DNA of 64,000 nt, taken from Candidatus Endomicrobiellum devescovinae. GTDB lineage: Bacteria; Elusimicrobiota; Endomicrobiia; Endomicrobiales; Endomicrobiaceae. The stretch is taken from positions 186,001 to 250,000 of the forward strand of contig JAIRYK010000022.1 of assembly GCA_031267795.1 (NCBI GenBank), read 5' to 3'. Both the position numbers and the translations under genes were made by a program. Numbering within the stretch: position 1 is the first letter of the stretch; the number at the start of each line of letters is the position of its first letter. Under the pieces are notes generated by a model that saw only the letters and a list, made by a program, of their open reading frames with translations, had not been told where the DNA came from and ran no database searches. Of the stretch, positions 9,867 to 36,142 are shown piece by piece.

Positions 9867-11135
9867 CTAATACCTATAAGAAATAAATCCAAAAATATTA
9901 GTACTCGTACTGTTTTTGTTGATATTGATAAACGTTTCATCAATGTTTACTATATTACCTGTTATATGTCTTTGCCCTTGTAAGCTGCTAAAGTGATAAT
10001 ATTCGCAACCTATACCTGCAGAAAAATATGATGATAGTGGAATTGTAACAGAAGCTTCTAAATCCACCCACAATCCAAAAGTAGCAGTACACTTGTAGCT
10101 TATAGGAAGTTGCATATCTATACCGATTGAATATTCAGTTGCAGCTTCCCTACCAAACACGCTTTCAAAACCAAAAAGCAATCTAGTGTCTTCATTAACT
10201 TCGTACCCACTTACCACTTTATAGGACATACCTCTAGTTGTTATATAAGGATAAACGTCAGGCACTCTAAATCCAAAAAAACTATAGGTTTCCCTATAAG
10301 TATAGAATAGGTTGTAGCACTTAGAAACGTTGAAATTGTTCCAGCGGTTTTAATTGTTCCCTTTTTAAAGTCTTCTCTACCTTTTGCGTTAAAAGCCGTG
10401 ATAATTCTCGTTGAATCATACCTGACATCATCATCTTTGTTAGCTGCTATATCATAAGAAGCTCCAGATATCCTCTCTTTCAAATAAATAGCCCATGAAA
10501 TACTATCTACATTATTCCTAGCAAAATATCATAACCTATGCTTTCAGATAAAAGCATCTCATTATTAAGTCCACCTGCTGAAATAATAATACGGTAATCA
10601 TAGTAACCTGAAAAGGGCACTGTTATTTCCTCGCCATATTTTCCTACTAAACCTTCAGATCCACAAGCCCCTTCCCTATCACATTGGAACGTCATTCTCT
10701 TAAATAATACGAAAAGATGTTTTTCTCCACATCTCCATTGCCTTCACTATCTTTATAAAATGAATAATCTAGCCCAAATGCCTTATATCTCAAAGCATGT
10801 CCAGACTCATGCAGGGCAATATAAGCCTCTTGATTGACAAAAAACAAAAAGAACCAAGAAGAGAAACGTATCAACCACTTTTGAGATAAATTTAATTTGT
10901 CAAACCATTCTCGGTTCTCTAACCACTCTAATGCTCTATCTGAAGCTCTCAAACAATCCATATTAAAGTTAACAAGTTGTTTATTTGTATAATACCCATC
11001 AAAGTAAGCGCTGCTTAATGTAGCGCTGTCTTTTTTCAAATAATTATAAAGGTCAAAGTAATGTTCGGATGCTAATGTGAATTGTACAAATAATATAAGT
11101 GTAAAAAAACTACTTAATAATTTTTTCATATGCAA
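9867..11135 (-). pseudogene. Degraded gene for an exported HESGH-motif protein (metalloprotease-like)
   Basis: Four adjacent minus-strand reading frames read as one gene with three frame changes. Piece 1 (11135-10692) has a signal peptide (MKKLLSSFFTLILFVQFTLA) and the motif ALHESGHALRYKAFG, an HExxH-like zinc site. Piece 2 (10695-10507) overlaps it by ATGA. Piece 3 is open from about 10510 (SISWAIYLKERISGASYD) to 10241, and piece 4 (to 9867) looks like amphipathic beta strands of an outer-membrane barrel ending FISYRY. The composite would be ~420 residues. Three frame breaks in 1.3 kb argue for a pseudogene. No family is recognised beyond the zinc-site motif. Confidence 0.65.
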
Positions 11136-11221: not shown

Positions 11222-11944
11222 TTATTTAACCTTGTAAACTTTATGCATTTGTACCATAAGATAAATATTTGGATACACTTTTCTAGCTTGACTGTAAAAT
11301 TTATAAAGATCTTGTATATCTGGAATATTTTTGTCAATAGATAGTTGAAGAATTAAAGATATATTTTTTGAGATGCTTTTTATAAGTTCGGCTGACTTTT
11401 TTATTTCTTGCAATTTAGTATTTTTTGTTATAACGCATTTAACAAATACTTTATTTTTGGCAATTTTCAAAAATTTTCTATGCTCTGTCCAAAAAGTTTT
11501 ACCGCATTCCGAAGTAAATTTAAAATCCATTGAAACAACATCACAAAAGGCAATTACTTCTTTTAAATTTTTAGGCAATGTTCCGTTTGTCTCAAGGTAA
11601 ACGCTAAACCCCTTTTCACAAATCTTTGGCAACAATTCTTTCAAAAAATCCACATAAATCAACGGCTCGCCGCCTGTAATTGAAATAGACGGTTTATCAA
11701 TATCTAAACGATTAAAAGTGCTTTTATTTTTAGTATAAACAGAGTAAATTTTTTTTAATATTTCATCAGAGCTCAAATATTTTGCTTTTTTAGAAATTAC
11801 AGTTGAATATGACGTGTCGCAATACCTGCATTTTAGATTGCAGCCTGCAAAGCGTAAAAAAACTTGAGGAAGTCCAGTATATAGCCCTTCTCCTTGGAAT
11901 GAAAAAAATATTTCATATACTGGGGCTTTTGTTACAAGTGACAC
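11222..11944 (-). CDS. queE: 7-carboxy-7-deazaguanine synthase QueE (radical SAM)
   Basis: The 240-residue protein has the radical SAM Cys cluster CNLKCRYC (CxxxCxxC) at about residues 35-42, preceded by the QueE signature FSFQGEGLYTGLPQVFLRFAGC. The glycine-rich SAM motif ITGGEPL follows. It converts 6-carboxytetrahydropterin to 7-carboxy-7-deazaguanine in the preQ0/queuosine pathway. The start is GTG with an AAGGAAG Shine-Dalgarno inside the end of queC; one base separates the genes. queC and queD in the same run support the assignment. Confidence 0.95.
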   Translation of the reverse strand: MSLVTKAPVYEIFFSFQGEGLYTGLPQVFLRFAGCNLKCRYCDTSYSTVISKKAKYLSSDEILKKIYSVYTKNKSTFNRLDIDKPSISITGGEPLIYVDFLKELLPKICEKGFSVYLETNGTLPKNLKEVIAFCDVVSMDFKFTSECGKTFWTEHRKFLKIAKNKVFVKCVITKNTKLQEIKKSAELIKSISKNISLILQLSIDKNIPDIQDLYKFYSQARKVYPNIYLMVQMHKVYKVK

Positions 11945-11945
11945 T

Positions 11946-12602
11946 TCACTTCCTTCCTAACGCAGGATCAAGCAATTTTGCTTCTTTAAAACCTTTTGCT
12001 CTTAACTTACAGGAATCGCATTTCATGCAAGGTTTGCTGTAACCATTGTAACAAGTCCATGTATGCTCATATGGAACATTCAATTTTGTTCCGAGTTTTA
12101 TTATTTGAGATTTATTCATTTTTAAAAGCGGAGTTTGAATCGTTATTTTTGTTTTTAAAGCCTTTAAAACGTTATTGTACGCTTTTATAAAATCCGGCGT
12201 GCAGTCAGGGTAATTTGAAAAATCTATAGCATTAACACCAATAAAAATTGTTTCCGCATTTATTGACTGCGCATAAGAAAGAGCATAAGAAATAAAGAGA
12301 GTGTTTCTACCAGGAACATAAGTAGAAGGAACAGATTTTGGAAGAACTTTATGAATAGGAACTTTTTTATCTTTATTTGTCAAAGCATCATTAGACCAAG
12401 GAAGAGATAGGTTTACAATGGAATGTTCAGCTTTAACAGTCTTTGCAATTTTAAGAGCTGCTTTTATCTCTTTCTTGTGTTTCTGACCATAATCAAATAA
12501 CAAACAACTGCATTTATATTCTCTATTCATAGCGTAATATAAAACTGTTGTGGAATCTAAACCGCCAGAAAATAAAACTATCGCTTTTTTTGCTTTTGCC
12601 AT
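11946..12602 (-). CDS. queC: 7-cyano-7-deazaguanine (preQ0) synthase QueC
   Basis: It begins with the PP-loop ATPase motif LFSGGLDSTT and ends with a zinc-binding Cys set, CYNGYSKPCMKCDSC, as in QueC. It turns 7-carboxy-7-deazaguanine into preQ0 using ATP and ammonia. The ATG at 12602 is preferred over an upstream in-frame TTG because GAGG lies 6 bases before it. The protein is ~218 residues, normal for the family. It follows the histidine kinase gene by 36 bases and precedes queE by one base. Confidence 0.95.
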   Translation of the reverse strand: MAKAKKAIVLFSGGLDSTTVLYYAMNREYKCSCLLFDYGQKHKKEIKAALKIAKTVKAEHSIVNLSLPWSNDALTNKDKKVPIHKVLPKSVPSTYVPGRNTLFISYALSYAQSINAETIFIGVNAIDFSNYPDCTPDFIKAYNNVLKALKTKITIQTPLLKMNKSQIIKLGTKLNVPYEHTWTCYNGYSKPCMKCDSCKLRAKGFKEAKLLDPALGRK

Positions 12603-12638
12603 TATTATCCTCAGTCTCAAACCAATAAACTTAATTTT

Positions 12639-14157: not shown

Positions 14158-14847
14158 TTATTCGATAAAGTTTACTCCAACGTATCCTTGAAACGGAGAA
14201 GGTAAATGACTAAACAAAGTGTCATTGTACACTCTGCCAATAAATTCTATGACGTCTTTATAAACAAATAAGGCTGACTTCAAATTTAAAATTTCTACCC
14301 CATTCAGTAACACAGGTAACTCATCTAAGAAATACTTAACTGCTATGTGAAGAGATTCTCTATCAATATTGGCAAAGTTCTGCGCGTATCCTAAAGTCTT
14401 CTTTGAAACAGTCAAACATCCTTCCCTAAAATCTTCATCACTTTCATATAAACTGTTATAAATATCGTGAAATTTTGCATATCTTTCATTATTTATGAGA
14501 TCACTGTAAAAAATTATCCTATCTTTTGCTTCTTTTTCTGACAAACCATTTTTAAGCAGAGCTTTTATTGCTTTGTTCCTTAAGTATCTATCTTGACTAT
14601 TTGTTTTCTTCTTGGCTTTCTCTTGAGAATATCCCATTGCATGCAGAGTGTACATAGAAATCCCATCTGGTATAAAAATACTTATTCTTTTAAAAGTTGA
14701 CAGCCCCCATGAAAAAAGCTTTTTTAAATTCTCTTCCGAATAATAACTATTAAACGGGCTTATACCTATTAGAGCGTGTTCCTTTAAAAGAAACAATTCT
14801 TCTGATTCCGAATTCACAAAATTTAATACTGCCTTTTCTTTTTCCAT
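14158..14847 (-). CDS. tRNA-dependent cyclodipeptide synthase (CDPS)
   Basis: The 229-residue protein matches the AlbC-type fold. EHALIGISPFNSYYS (residues 24-37) parallels the AlbC segment around its nucleophile; Ser30 is the predicted acyl-accepting serine. Tyr172 and Glu176 (KYFLDELP) fit the AlbC Tyr178/Glu182 pair, and Tyr196 (LFVYKD) fits Tyr202. Spacings agree to within one residue. These enzymes use two aminoacyl-tRNAs to make a cyclodipeptide (2,5-diketopiperazine) in the cytoplasm. The subfamily signature is Asn33-Tyr196-Lys197, so it is neither clean NYH nor XYP. A TATAAT promoter and AGAGG Shine-Dalgarno precede it. No tailoring oxidase is adjacent; a sensor kinase follows 22 bases downstream. 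Product amino acids cannot be predicted. Confidence 0.92.
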   Translation of the reverse strand: MEKEKAVLNFVNSESEELFLLKEHALIGISPFNSYYSEENLKKLFSWGLSTFKRISIFIPDGISMYTLHAMGYSQEKAKKKTNSQDRYLRNKAIKALLKNGLSEKEAKDRIIFYSDLINNERYAKFHDIYNSLYESDEDFREGCLTVSKKTLGYAQNFANIDRESLHIAVKYFLDELPVLLNGVEILNLKSALFVYKDVIEFIGRVYNDTLFSHLPSPFQGYVGVNFIE

Positions 14848-15033: not shown

Positions 15034-15402
15034 TTACATACTAACAACAGCCGAAGATGACTCGCTTTCCCAAACTTCAACTTCACATACTTTTGCAGTT
15101 TCAGTTTCTATTTTTTTTAGCTGTTCATAAATAAATGCGGCTATATTTTCCGCTGTAGGATTAATTTTATTGAAAGGATCTATTTCATTTAAAAATTTGT
15201 GGTCTAGATAGGAAATAATTTGATCAAGATGTTTCTTTATGTCTGTAAAATCTATAAGCATGCCTGTATTGTCAAGCTTTGAACCTGAAAAAGCTGCTCT
15301 TATCTTCCAGTTATGTCCGTGAAGATTCTCACACCTGCCTTTATACCCTCTAAGACAGTGCGCCGAAGCAAAATTTTTAGTTACTGAAAGTTTATATTTC
15401 AT
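15034..15402 (-). CDS. queD: 6-carboxytetrahydropterin synthase QueD
   Basis: The protein of ~122 residues has the zinc-site pattern of the PTPS/QueD family: FASAHCLRGYKGRCENLHGHNW, with His residues in ASAH and LHGHNW and a catalytic Cys in GRC. It makes 6-carboxy-5,6,7,8-tetrahydropterin from dihydroneopterin triphosphate, the first committed step to preQ0. The ATG at 15402 is chosen over an upstream one (15426) because GAGG sits 5 bases before it. It is separated from queC and queE by the CDPS and kinase genes. Confidence 0.94.
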   Translation of the reverse strand: MKYKLSVTKNFASAHCLRGYKGRCENLHGHNWKIRAAFSGSKLDNTGMLIDFTDIKKHLDQIISYLDHKFLNEIDPFNKINPTAENIAAFIYEQLKKIETETAKVCEVEVWESESSSAVVSM

Positions 15403-15565
15403 TTTTACCTCTATTGCACTAAACATATTTCATATGAGTTTATTATAGCCATCAGCTTATAATAACAAAATAAAAATACGCTGTTATCTCTTGCTTTTTA
15501 AAATTATTTAGACTTTTCAATCCAGTTCGTTAATATATACTGGTGACATATAATCTTCTTTCCTT

Positions 15566-33888: not shown

Positions 33889-34623
33889 TCAATTATTTGT
33901 TTCGTAACTGCTGAAAGGCATGCCAAGAGCTTTAAATTTTGTTGTAAACGGTTGGTAAAAACATTTTTCAAGGTATCTTAATAGATTGTTTGTTTCAAGA
34001 AAAGATAATACAGGGCTGTCAAAATTAATGATTGACACTACTTTTAAATCTAAATCTTTTTCTTTTAATTTTTGGAGAAAATTGTTCAGCTCATCTTCAG
34101 AAGCTGGTTCTACCAGCAATAATCTAAAAGATTCCGGTTCCAAATCAAGGAACTCATCAAATTTTTGGAATACTGAAACATTATAACCTGCTTTCTCTAA
34201 AATCATGACAGAAACTGAATCTCCAGTTATAGCAGCAATCTTTTCTTCTCTAGACTTTTCCGGTGATGCTATTCTTTCAAGGGTTCTCAAAATCTTAGGA
34301 ATATCAAAGGGTTTGTCCACAACTAAAAATGCCTCTTTCTCTGCCTCTTTAATCAAATCTATAAGAGCGTATGCAGTCATTATAATAATAACGATTTTTT
34401 TGTTAAATTTCTTTATTTCTTTGGAAGCTTCAACTCCATTCATTTCAGGCATTTTAATATCAAGAAATACAACATCAAAATTGCCAGTCTTCACAGCTTC
34501 TACAGCTTCTAAACCATTTTCTACCATAGAAACGCTATACCCCTGAACTTGAAGAATGCTTCCTAATGAATATCTTAAAGACGCTTCGTCGTCAGCAATA
34601 AGAATATTCAAATTATTAGCCAC
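33889..34623 (-). CDS. Response regulator: receiver plus degenerate second receiver-like domain
   Basis: The N-terminal receiver (residues ~5-122) is complete: acidic pair IADDE, phosphoacceptor FLDIKMPEMNG, Thr in MTAYA, Lys in DKPFD. The second half (~130-240) has the alternating strand/helix pattern of another receiver (MILEKAGYNVSVFQKFDEF, LLLVEP, LKVVSIINF) but no phosphoacceptor Asp. There is no DNA-binding domain, so output is likely by protein contact. Its start overlaps the kinase stop by 8 bases, making the kinase the natural partner. Confidence 0.88.
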   Translation of the reverse strand: MANNLNILIADDEASLRYSLGSILQVQGYSVSMVENGLEAVEAVKTGNFDVVFLDIKMPEMNGVEASKEIKKFNKKIVIIIMTAYALIDLIKEAEKEAFLVVDKPFDIPKILRTLERIASPEKSREEKIAAITGDSVSVMILEKAGYNVSVFQKFDEFLDLEPESFRLLLVEPASEDELNNFLQKLKEKDLDLKVVSIINFDSPVLSFLETNNLLRYLEKCFYQPFTTKFKALGMPFSSYETNN

Positions 34624-36142
34624 TTGTTTTCTCCTTCAGAGGGATGTTTATAGAAAACTCCGTCCCTTTATTTTCCTCACTTGTTACAGTTATTCTTCCA
34701 AAATGCAATTCTACTATTTTTTTTACTATCGCAAGACCAAGTCCCATAGACCTCAATTTTGTTGTAAAAAGAGGAGTCCAAATATTATTAAGAATGTTAT
34801 CATTAATTCCAGTTCCTGTATCTTTAACTTTTATTTCAACAAAATCCCCATAGCGTTTTACCGATATATATATATTCCCACCGTCCGGCATGGAATCTCT
34901 TGCATTTATAATAAGCTGCTCTAAAGCCTTGCTTAACTTAGAAGAATCAATCTCAGCTTTAACGTGTTCAAAATTTTCTTTAATTTCTATATTTTTTGGC
35001 AAGTTTACTGTAACAGTAGCAGAATGAACAATATTATCAATATATGTATCCATTTTTTGAATGTTTTCCAGAATTGAAAAAGAAAGAAGATCTGAAAGAA
35101 TCTTATTGATTCTGCCAAGCTCAGAAAAAAACATTTCAATCATTTTGACAGATTTTTCATCGCTGAAATCTTTAGTCTGCGAAAAAAAGAACATTATATT
35201 TTGTAAACTTGTCAATGGATTTTTAATCTCATGTGTTAAAGTCGCTGCAAGTCTTCCAATTGTCGCAAATCTTTCTGATTCTATGAGTTCTTTTTTTACT
35301 AGCTCAAGATTATTTTTTGTCTTGATTAGCTCAGACTTCTCATTGGATAAAGACTTCAAGTTTTTATCAAAAAGCTTTTCCATTGAATTAAAAGCTTCAA
35401 CTAAATATTCAATTTCTTTAACTTTTACTAATGGGTCCTTATATGAAAATTTGCCATTTGACATATTTTTGACACTAATAGATAACTTTTCAATAGGATT
35501 TAGAATTATTCTAACTAATAATAACGACAAACCTAAACAAAAAATAATAACTATAATAGAAATTAGCACGACTGTATTTAATGTACTTGCAATTTTCTGA
35601 TCTGTATTTGCAAAAGATAGGACTACCCTAACAGCACCAATTGACTCTTTTAATTTTATAGAATTTATTTCATCATTAGATGCAGGTATTCCAAAAATAT
35701 CTTCTCCTTTTTTAAATATAGGAGTTAGTACTTCAAGAAACCTAGCGTTTCTTTTAGATTTATTAATAACTGCAGTTGTTTCGCTAATACTATTAAAATC
35801 TATTTTGTTATCTGGTATAATTTTATTAATCTCAGCATCTGTTATTTTAGCCTCAATTAGTTCTCCAGAATCTTTATTGTATATCTCTACACTAACAACA
35901 TCATCTTTAAGAATTGCTCTTTCAGCATGGTAATGTAAAGTTTTCTGTTGATTGACAGATAAAGAGTCCAAACAAGAAGCAGCTAAATCTTTGGCAAAAA
36001 TTTTAGCTTTATTTTTTAGATTATCCTCAAGATTTACTTTGTAAGTTTTAATAAAAAAACTCGTTAGAATAATTGAAGCTAAACTAACCACAAATGCTAT
36101 TATAAATAATAACTCTGTTTTTAAACTTATAAACTTTTTCAT
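34616..36142 (-). CDS. Membrane sensor histidine kinase with HAMP domain
   Basis: The 508-residue protein has one N-terminal membrane helix, a periplasmic sensor domain of ~160 residues, a second helix (VVLISIIVIIFCLGLSLLLV), a HAMP domain (LNPIEKLSISVKNMSNG), a HisKA domain with THEIKNPLTSL, and HATPase boxes QLIINARDSMPDGG, VKDTGTGI and MGLGLAIVKKI. The signal is unknown. It forms an operon with the overlapping receiver protein. Confidence 0.94.
   Translation of the reverse strand: MKKFISLKTELLFIIAFVVSLASIILTSFFIKTYKVNLEDNLKNKAKIFAKDLAASCLDSLSVNQQKTLHYHAERAILKDDVVSVEIYNKDSGELIEAKITDAEINKIIPDNKIDFNSISETTAVINKSKRNARFLEVLTPIFKKGEDIFGIPASNDEINSIKLKESIGAVRVVLSFANTDQKIASTLNTVVLISIIVIIFCLGLSLLLVRIILNPIEKLSISVKNMSNGKFSYKDPLVKVKEIEYLVEAFNSMEKLFDKNLKSLSNEKSELIKTKNNLELVKKELIESERFATIGRLAATLTHEIKNPLTSLQNIMFFFSQTKDFSDEKSVKMIEMFFSELGRINKILSDLLSFSILENIQKMDTYIDNIVHSATVTVNLPKNIEIKENFEHVKAEIDSSKLSKALEQLIINARDSMPDGGNIYISVKRYGDFVEIKVKDTGTGINDNILNNIWTPLFTTKLRSMGLGLAIVKKIVELHFGRITVTSEENKGTEFSINIPLKEKTSG

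Follow-up and report, generated by a model that had tools for sequence, protein, structure and literature searches.

The window analysed here, 64,000 nucleotides of contig JAIRYK010000022.1 from the termite-gut symbiont Candidatus Endomicrobiellum devescovinae, carries a gene for a cyclodipeptide synthase (CDPS) followed directly by a gene for a histidine kinase with two PAS domains. On gene order and sequence comparison, we give roughly even chances to the reading that these two genes form a signalling cassette in which the CDPS is the enzyme half. The CDPS would make an untailored cyclodipeptide by joining the amino acids of two aminoacyl-tRNAs, and the PAS domains of the kinase, or the kinase as a whole, would respond either to that product or to the state of the CDPS at work. 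In turn, the kinase would phosphorylate a response regulator encoded elsewhere, and the output would report the supply of amino acids or charged tRNA, or else symbiont density, inside the host. Autoinducer synthase genes lie beside sensor kinase genes in the CqsA-CqsS and LqsA-LqsS systems, and the proposed cassette would be analogous to CqsA-CqsS as a synthase-plus-sensor pair. Here, in contrast, the enzyme is tRNA-dependent and unrelated, the kinase is predicted to be soluble, and the ligand is putative.

CDPSs have been studied as natural-product enzymes. A recurrent CDPS-kinase pair, if real, would imply a dedicated cyclodipeptide receptor and would tie the substrates of translation to two-component signalling. 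Both CDPS classes are represented among the pairs, which come from host-associated bacteria belonging to two phyla, and a fused form exists as well; the pair also offers a testable route to gene-expression control in gut symbionts with reduced genomes. No publication describing a CDPS-histidine kinase pair was found by title or opening of the abstract, in a search that left most subscription journals outside, and none was found on a cyclodipeptide synthase in Endomicrobium or Elusimicrobia. The flagellate endosymbionts Endomicrobiellum are treated in PMC11257099 (articles are cited here by identifier, each for part of its content), whose main text never uses the words cyclodipeptide, diketopiperazine or histidine kinase.

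Identity and active site of the cyclodipeptide synthase

The 229-codon open reading frame at 14158-14847 lies on the minus strand, and the plus strand of the same interval is full of stops. Its product matched Pfam PF16715 over residues 13-224 (E 3e-45; 155 bits, cut-off 27) and NCBIfam TIGR04539 (E 1.5e-52), and the top matches in a sequence search of the PDB were BtCDPS (7azu, E 1.2e-22), a cyclo(Leu-Leu) synthase (6ez3) and YvmC (3oqh). These profile and structure-database matches bear out the first-pass annotation of this DNA, which had named the gene a CDPS in a gut-symbiont-like genome. The genomic attribution also holds, with a gene 73% identical over 171 residues in the metagenome-assembled genome Endomicrobium sp. 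Gx485_bin172; the size of the genome and the GC content of the window agree with a probable placement in Endomicrobiellum, the flagellate endosymbionts of PMC11257099. That annotation had overlooked the minus strand and the PAS-PAS histidine kinase 22 bp downstream. In a PF16715 profile search, the window CDPS was the sole copy matched in its own genome (1.28 Mb, 24 contigs, 92.6% complete).

The catalytic columns S37, Y178, E182 and Y202 (AlbC numbers) are occupied in the alignment by S30, Y172, E176 and Y196 of the window protein, and columns N40 and 203 by Asn33 and Lys197; all six residues named earlier thus stand in the expected CDPS columns. AlbC itself was absent from this alignment, and its numbering and residue roles were taken from PMC13062777 and PMC5935735. 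All 765 CDPSs known in June 2017 are reported to fall in either the NYH or the XYP class (PMC5816076), and AlbC, Rv2275, YvmC and BtCDPS belong to the former (PMC7613923). The window protein satisfies neither the strict NYH signature (Asn40-Tyr202-His203), reading Asn33-Tyr196-Lys197, nor the XYP mark Pro203, with Lys197 at that place. The signature columns read S-N-Y-E-Y-K in all six full-length CDPSs of the genus. Among seven outside sequences compared they read S-N-Y-E-Y-H, with N replaced by T in one and His203 kept in every one. The genus CDPSs form a clade (support 100/99) that adjoins the CDPS of Legionella lytica at 84/89, in a tree that contained no XYP sequence. The earlier statement that the protein fits neither class cleanly stands for residue 203; the nearest relatives appear to be NYH CDPSs, with BtCDPS and YvmC among the best PDB matches. 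The window enzyme is a predicted NYH-related CDPS with a lineage-fixed His-to-Lys change at position 203. It shares with the NYH-class enzymes the sequence family and the equivalents of Ser37, Tyr178, Glu182, Tyr202 and Asn40; it differs from them in the Lys for His203 seen in six of six genus proteins, and in having as partner a histidine kinase rather than a P450, oxidase or methyltransferase. In AlbC, N40 and H203 act as a pair, and replacing either by alanine impairs the enzyme strongly (PMC5935735).

Conservation along the window CDPS is uneven. Residues 1-82 are 65-87% identical to five relatives from the genus, and residues 148-229 are 45-48% identical to them, against 51-85% among the relatives themselves; nucleotide identity drops likewise in the C-terminal part of the gene. 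This divergence could reflect recombination or a relaxed constraint in the lineage.

The kinase partner within the genus

The kinase gene starts 22 bp past the CDPS stop on the same strand (Table 1). Its product has no membrane-type hydrophobic stretch (maximum 19-residue hydropathy 1.14) and is predicted to be soluble. HATPase_c was matched at 1.6e-15 and HisKA had no match at E 0.001; a candidate phosphoacceptor, the His in VAHDIVSP, was placed by eye.

PF16715 found a CDPS in 12 of 340 Elusimicrobiota genomes, every one in the window's genus, and a protein search gave CDPS matches in 14 of the 41 genus genomes. Full-length open CDPS genes were present in six (the window's own genome, G000, with G249, G254, G257, G258 and G282), a copy truncated by a contig end in one (G274), and decayed pieces alone in the others (G255, G261, G262, G263, G281, G285 and G287). 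The kinase is the next same-strand gene in all six intact copies, that of G282 being truncated by a contig end; three of the pairs are separated by 12-22 bases and three overlap by 4-38 bases. Kinase pieces also lie downstream of the decayed CDPS in G262, G281, G285 and G287. A related kinase stands upstream of the pieces instead in G261, and no kinase was seen beside those of G255 and G263.

Three unrelated sites are occupied by intact pairs, and six when decayed pairs are counted. QueD lies upstream in the window, in G257, in G274 and in the decayed G281, with a trace in G287; GH57 lies upstream and a PQ-loop gene downstream in G249, G254 and G258, with a CDPS trace beside GH57 in G263; and a BatA-like gene lies upstream of the intact pair of G282. 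The genes upstream of decayed pairs were LeuA-like in G287, HisRS-like in G285 and SecA in G262. The two genes, found together at differing sites, are therefore a cassette that stays joined while its address changes. The intact CDPS and kinase were shown by Nei-Gojobori estimates to be under purifying selection at the level of their coding sequences, with dN/dS of 0.12-0.38 for the CDPS (14 of 15 pairwise comparisons, the other being saturated; six genomes without G282) and 0.23-0.43 in 10 of 10 kinase pairs, figures that are rough because dS is close to 1 or higher in many comparisons.

The adjacency of the kinase would also be expected under ordinary secondary metabolism, in which the product of the CDPS is a bioactive or host-directed cyclodipeptide and the role of the kinase is limited to timing its production by sensing redox or a host cue. 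CDPSs are described as secondary-metabolite enzymes (PMC5816076), and the top NCBIfam match of the kinase was the ArcB model, at a score below that model's cut-off. A simple regulator would leave unexplained the CDPS domain fused to the same kinase family (see below), and neither a tailoring enzyme nor a response regulator was found travelling with the pair among the genus neighbours scanned. We regard this explanation as rather doubtful. The four neighbours scanned in the window (kinase, QueD, QueC and a radical SAM enzyme) include no tailoring enzyme, as had been noted before, and a search for P450s, made in the window's own genome alone, gave no match. An untailored cyclodipeptide is a plausible predicted product because no tailoring enzyme is adjacent. 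The first-pass annotation had guessed at a signal or a host-directed metabolite; because the conserved neighbour is a histidine kinase, "signal" is the better half of that guess.

At the GH57 site, all three intact copies of the cassette (G249, G254 and G258) have a small PQ-loop membrane gene beside them. Another lies beside one of the fused kinases described below as type A, in G000, and a PQ-loop domain is fused into the kinase of a sponge symbiont. The PQ-loop protein is a possible third component of the cassette; that it may move the ligand is a guess.

Pairs outside the genus and fused kinases

A search of plasmids gave 23 records with a CDPS match, eight of which were inspected at the locus, one of them without annotation. 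The best match was a plasmid of L. lytica, at 38% identity to the window CDPS. There the CDPS gene (WP_252582640) overlaps the kinase gene (WP_252582639) by 14 bases, and a DDE transposase gene follows. This pair resembles that of the window in that the CDPS is directly followed by a kinase, and differs in that its CDPS has His203 and its kinase a single PAS domain plus REC and Hpt, in the order PAS-HisKA-HATPase-REC-Hpt. The first PAS domain of the window kinase was 41% identical to the L. lytica kinase over 115 residues, and the second PAS domain with the core 26% over 371 residues. A putative CDPS cluster is listed for the L. lytica plasmid in PMC11828895, in whose main text the term "histidine kinase" is absent.

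Four further loci were inspected from the PAS matches: Acaryochloris, Legionella antarctica, Legionella geestiana and the sponge symbiont Candidatus Endohaliclona renieramycinifaciens. On the p-ren plasmid of the last (MK748464), a protein annotated as hypothetical (QCC21406, L171:2848-3660) is encoded directly upstream of a PAS-PAS kinase (QCC21405). QCC21406 is a CDPS by its matches to PDB 5ocd (E 2.3e-52) and Nbra-CDPS (9i5m, 6e-30), the latter an XYP enzyme (PMC13062777), and by eye it has Tyr-Pro at the 202-203 place. The gene arrangement is as in the window; the differences are that this CDPS is nearest to 5ocd and Nbra-CDPS and that the kinase has an N-terminal PQ-loop membrane domain. 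A recognisable CDPS was absent beside the kinase in Acaryochloris by annotation and in L. antarctica and L. geestiana by annotation and Pfam. The L. geestiana and L. antarctica loci (L170:2452-5986 and L169:2196-6013) encode PAS-HisKA-REC-Hpt kinases that come after a methyltransferase gene and a 440-aa gene without a name, and are possibly other enzyme-kinase pairs. Searches of plasmids by tblastn with type A, type B and sponge-symbiont CDPS queries gave nothing further. A simple phage or plasmid origin of the genus copies was considered and set aside: no viral-contig relative was confirmed, and the phage matches were pieces of 37-54 bases only.

Several of these observations weigh against a signalling cassette. 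A kinase adjoins the CDPS in only one of the seven annotated plasmid loci inspected, that of L. lytica, the remaining six having P450, transporter or other neighbours. The PAS type is common, with 325 matching plasmid records; an Acaryochloris kinase with no adjacent CDPS matches the PAS domain better than that of L. lytica (48% vs 41%), and certain kinases of Legionella plasmids, with PAS domains of similar type, have other genes upstream. Within the genus, seven of the 14 genomes with a CDPS match carry decayed pieces only, three of these seven with no kinase downstream, and the dN/dS estimates are rough as stated. Lys203 may reduce activity, given the effect of H203A on AlbC (PMC5935735), and the C-terminal divergence of the window enzyme could represent relaxed constraint and not a new specificity.

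Relatives of the kinase were present in 17 of the 41 genus genomes (E 1e-20); in a thinner search, 15 of 294 phylum genomes gave a match at 1e-30, including one from outside the genus. Such relatives carry, in the members scanned, an N-terminal domain of 240-280 aa without a convincing Pfam match, and this domain comes in two types. Type A was found in 17 of 340 phylum genomes, every one in the genus, and type B in 16 of the 41 genus genomes (for example in G283, L107, 699 aa, and on C29 of G254, with an open frame of 835 codons). A profile of 11 type B domains matched PDB 5ocd (1.7e-7), 5mlp (7.6e-7), 9i5m (2.3e-5), 5mlq (2.4e-5) and 9iam (4.1e-5), all other matches lying at 0.16 or above. 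Four of these five entries bear the title cyclodipeptide synthase; the fifth, 5mlp, is titled "Uncharacterized protein", and we take it to be another XYP CDPS. The type B columns hold a Ser37-like residue in 10 of 11, Phe in 10 and Tyr in one at the Tyr178-like place, a Glu182-like residue in nine, a Tyr202-like residue in 10 and a Pro203-like residue in all 11. The change from Tyr178 to Phe impairs AlbC (PMC5935735). Type B is thus, by profile and residues, a divergent, XYP-like CDPS domain in the same chain as the kinase, with doubtful catalysis.

For type A, the PDB gave no CDPS match, and TIGR04539 was matched by one of the 17 members at 0.011, four other NCBIfam families also matching one member each. 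NCBIfam matches of type A and B members were single and weak, with unrelated families scoring equally or better. Shallow hhalign comparisons showed no CDPS likeness of either type, and deeper alignments scored above shuffled and real-protein controls: type A against CDPS reached 27.7, compared with a maximum of 23.7 in 40 column shuffles and of 22.1 (type A side) and 22.5 (CDPS side) with 36 proteins of the window. When the sponge-symbiont CDPS was added, the type A score rose to 35.5 against a maximum of 27.7 in 15 shuffled additions. The type B score was then 28.9 with shuffled additions reaching 31.6, so that this control gives type B no support. A Tyr-x-x-x-Glu pair is kept in 17 of 17 type A domains. 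Type A is tentatively related to CDPS on these scores. As judged from these alignments and from gene order, members of this kinase family stand next to a CDPS gene in some cases and are fused to a CDPS domain in others. The fused domains, unnamed by Pfam or NCBIfam in the members scanned, may have been annotated as kinases only. The fused relatives also have a receiver-like tail, below the Pfam cut-off.

Retention in type B of Ser (10 of 11), Tyr202 (10 of 11) and Pro203 (11 of 11), with Phe for Tyr178 in 10 of 11, suggests a kept ligand site with doubtful catalysis. This would suit a charged-tRNA sensor, in which direct control of the kinase comes from a CDPS or CDPS-like domain that binds or uses aminoacyl-tRNA, any cyclodipeptide being a by-product; GCN2 is a known counterpart of such a sensor. 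In the window, however, the CDPS is a separate gene with all four catalytic residues, and its contact with the kinase is putative; we judge this explanation unlikely. A broader form of the signalling-cassette reading, which we hold only tentatively, is that in this genus the CDPS fold serves as the input module of a histidine kinase family, as an enzyme in trans or a domain in cis, reporting aminoacyl-tRNA charging as GCN2 does, with the cyclodipeptide as a second messenger or a symbiont-to-symbiont signal. A single genome of 1.28 Mb has up to nine loci of the CDPS/kinase family, including four of the tentative type A.

The window's genome has a single CDPS pair together with type A and type B loci, four of each; several of these loci are broken or truncated at a contig end. 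Kinase-family copies lie at contig ends of G000 at C1:1-768, C4:5-916, C10:3-272 and C20:85-714 (L095, L096, L097 and L099), those on C4 and C20 carrying type A domains; given this placement, the family is probably a repeat at which the assembly breaks. At C23:139650-140878 (L100), a broken type A kinase stands between a SecA-like 864-aa gene and a 508-aa gene that is LNT-like by size and start, and the SecA site may have hosted different family members in G000 and G262. In a kinase-core tree of 16 rows (three of the 19 collected proteins were left out as too short), the CDPS-linked kinases were not one clade, with the QueD-site kinases placed among type A and B kinases at 85/91, below the star threshold; a single origin of the CDPS-linked kinases is possible and compatible with this tree. 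Such a pattern of several sites and several kinase-family copies per genome, many of them broken, with a transposase gene beside the L. lytica copy, could also be left by a spreading or selfish cassette that is now decaying and brings the symbiont no steady benefit. The purifying selection on intact pairs speaks against this, as does the absence of transposase and integrase genes from that part of the genus neighbours that was scanned, and we consider it very unlikely.

Neighbourhood of the cassette

Table 1. Positions of the cassette, its flanking genes in the window and PQ-loop genes at related loci.
Feature	Position	Strand	Matches and remarks
CDPS, 229 aa	14158..14847	minus	PF16715, TIGR04539, PDB sequence matches; S30, N33, Y172, E176, Y196, K197
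PAS-PAS histidine kinase, 498 aa	12639..14135	minus	PAS_4 5.5e-31 (2 stretches), HATPase_c 1.6e-15
QueD (queuosine pathway), upstream flank, outside the module	15034..15426	minus	PTPS 2.9e-41, TIGR03367 1e-30
QueC, downstream flank, 18 bp past the kinase	11946..12620	minus	QueC 9.1e-75
Radical SAM enzyme, downstream flank	11222..11944	minus	Radical_SAM 2.1e-13
PQ-loop proteins	L096:1790-2125; L019:5085-5372; L021:3833-4120; L022:12997-13308; L171:3698-5488		adjacent to CDPS-linked or type A kinases, or fused with them

The radical SAM gene is presumably QueE by its position, and QueC is possibly co-transcribed with the kinase. The QueD flank recurs in G257, G274, G281 and G287, and the QueC flank in G281, whose cassette is decayed. 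A functional link to queuosine was considered and rejected: QueD and QueC flank the cassette in the window, its neighbours elsewhere are unrelated genes, and the context looks incidental.

Four receiver domains scored above the cut-off in the window's genome, one of which, at 33889-34623 of the window, adjoins its own kinase. Some 20 kb away from the cassette, this response regulator and its histidine kinase (HisKA, HATPase_c and a weak HAMP; 33889-36142) make up a two-component pair of the ordinary kind. At 9867-11135, four successive minus-strand open reading frames without a Pfam match resemble a single decayed gene. The GC content of the window is 0.32-0.35.
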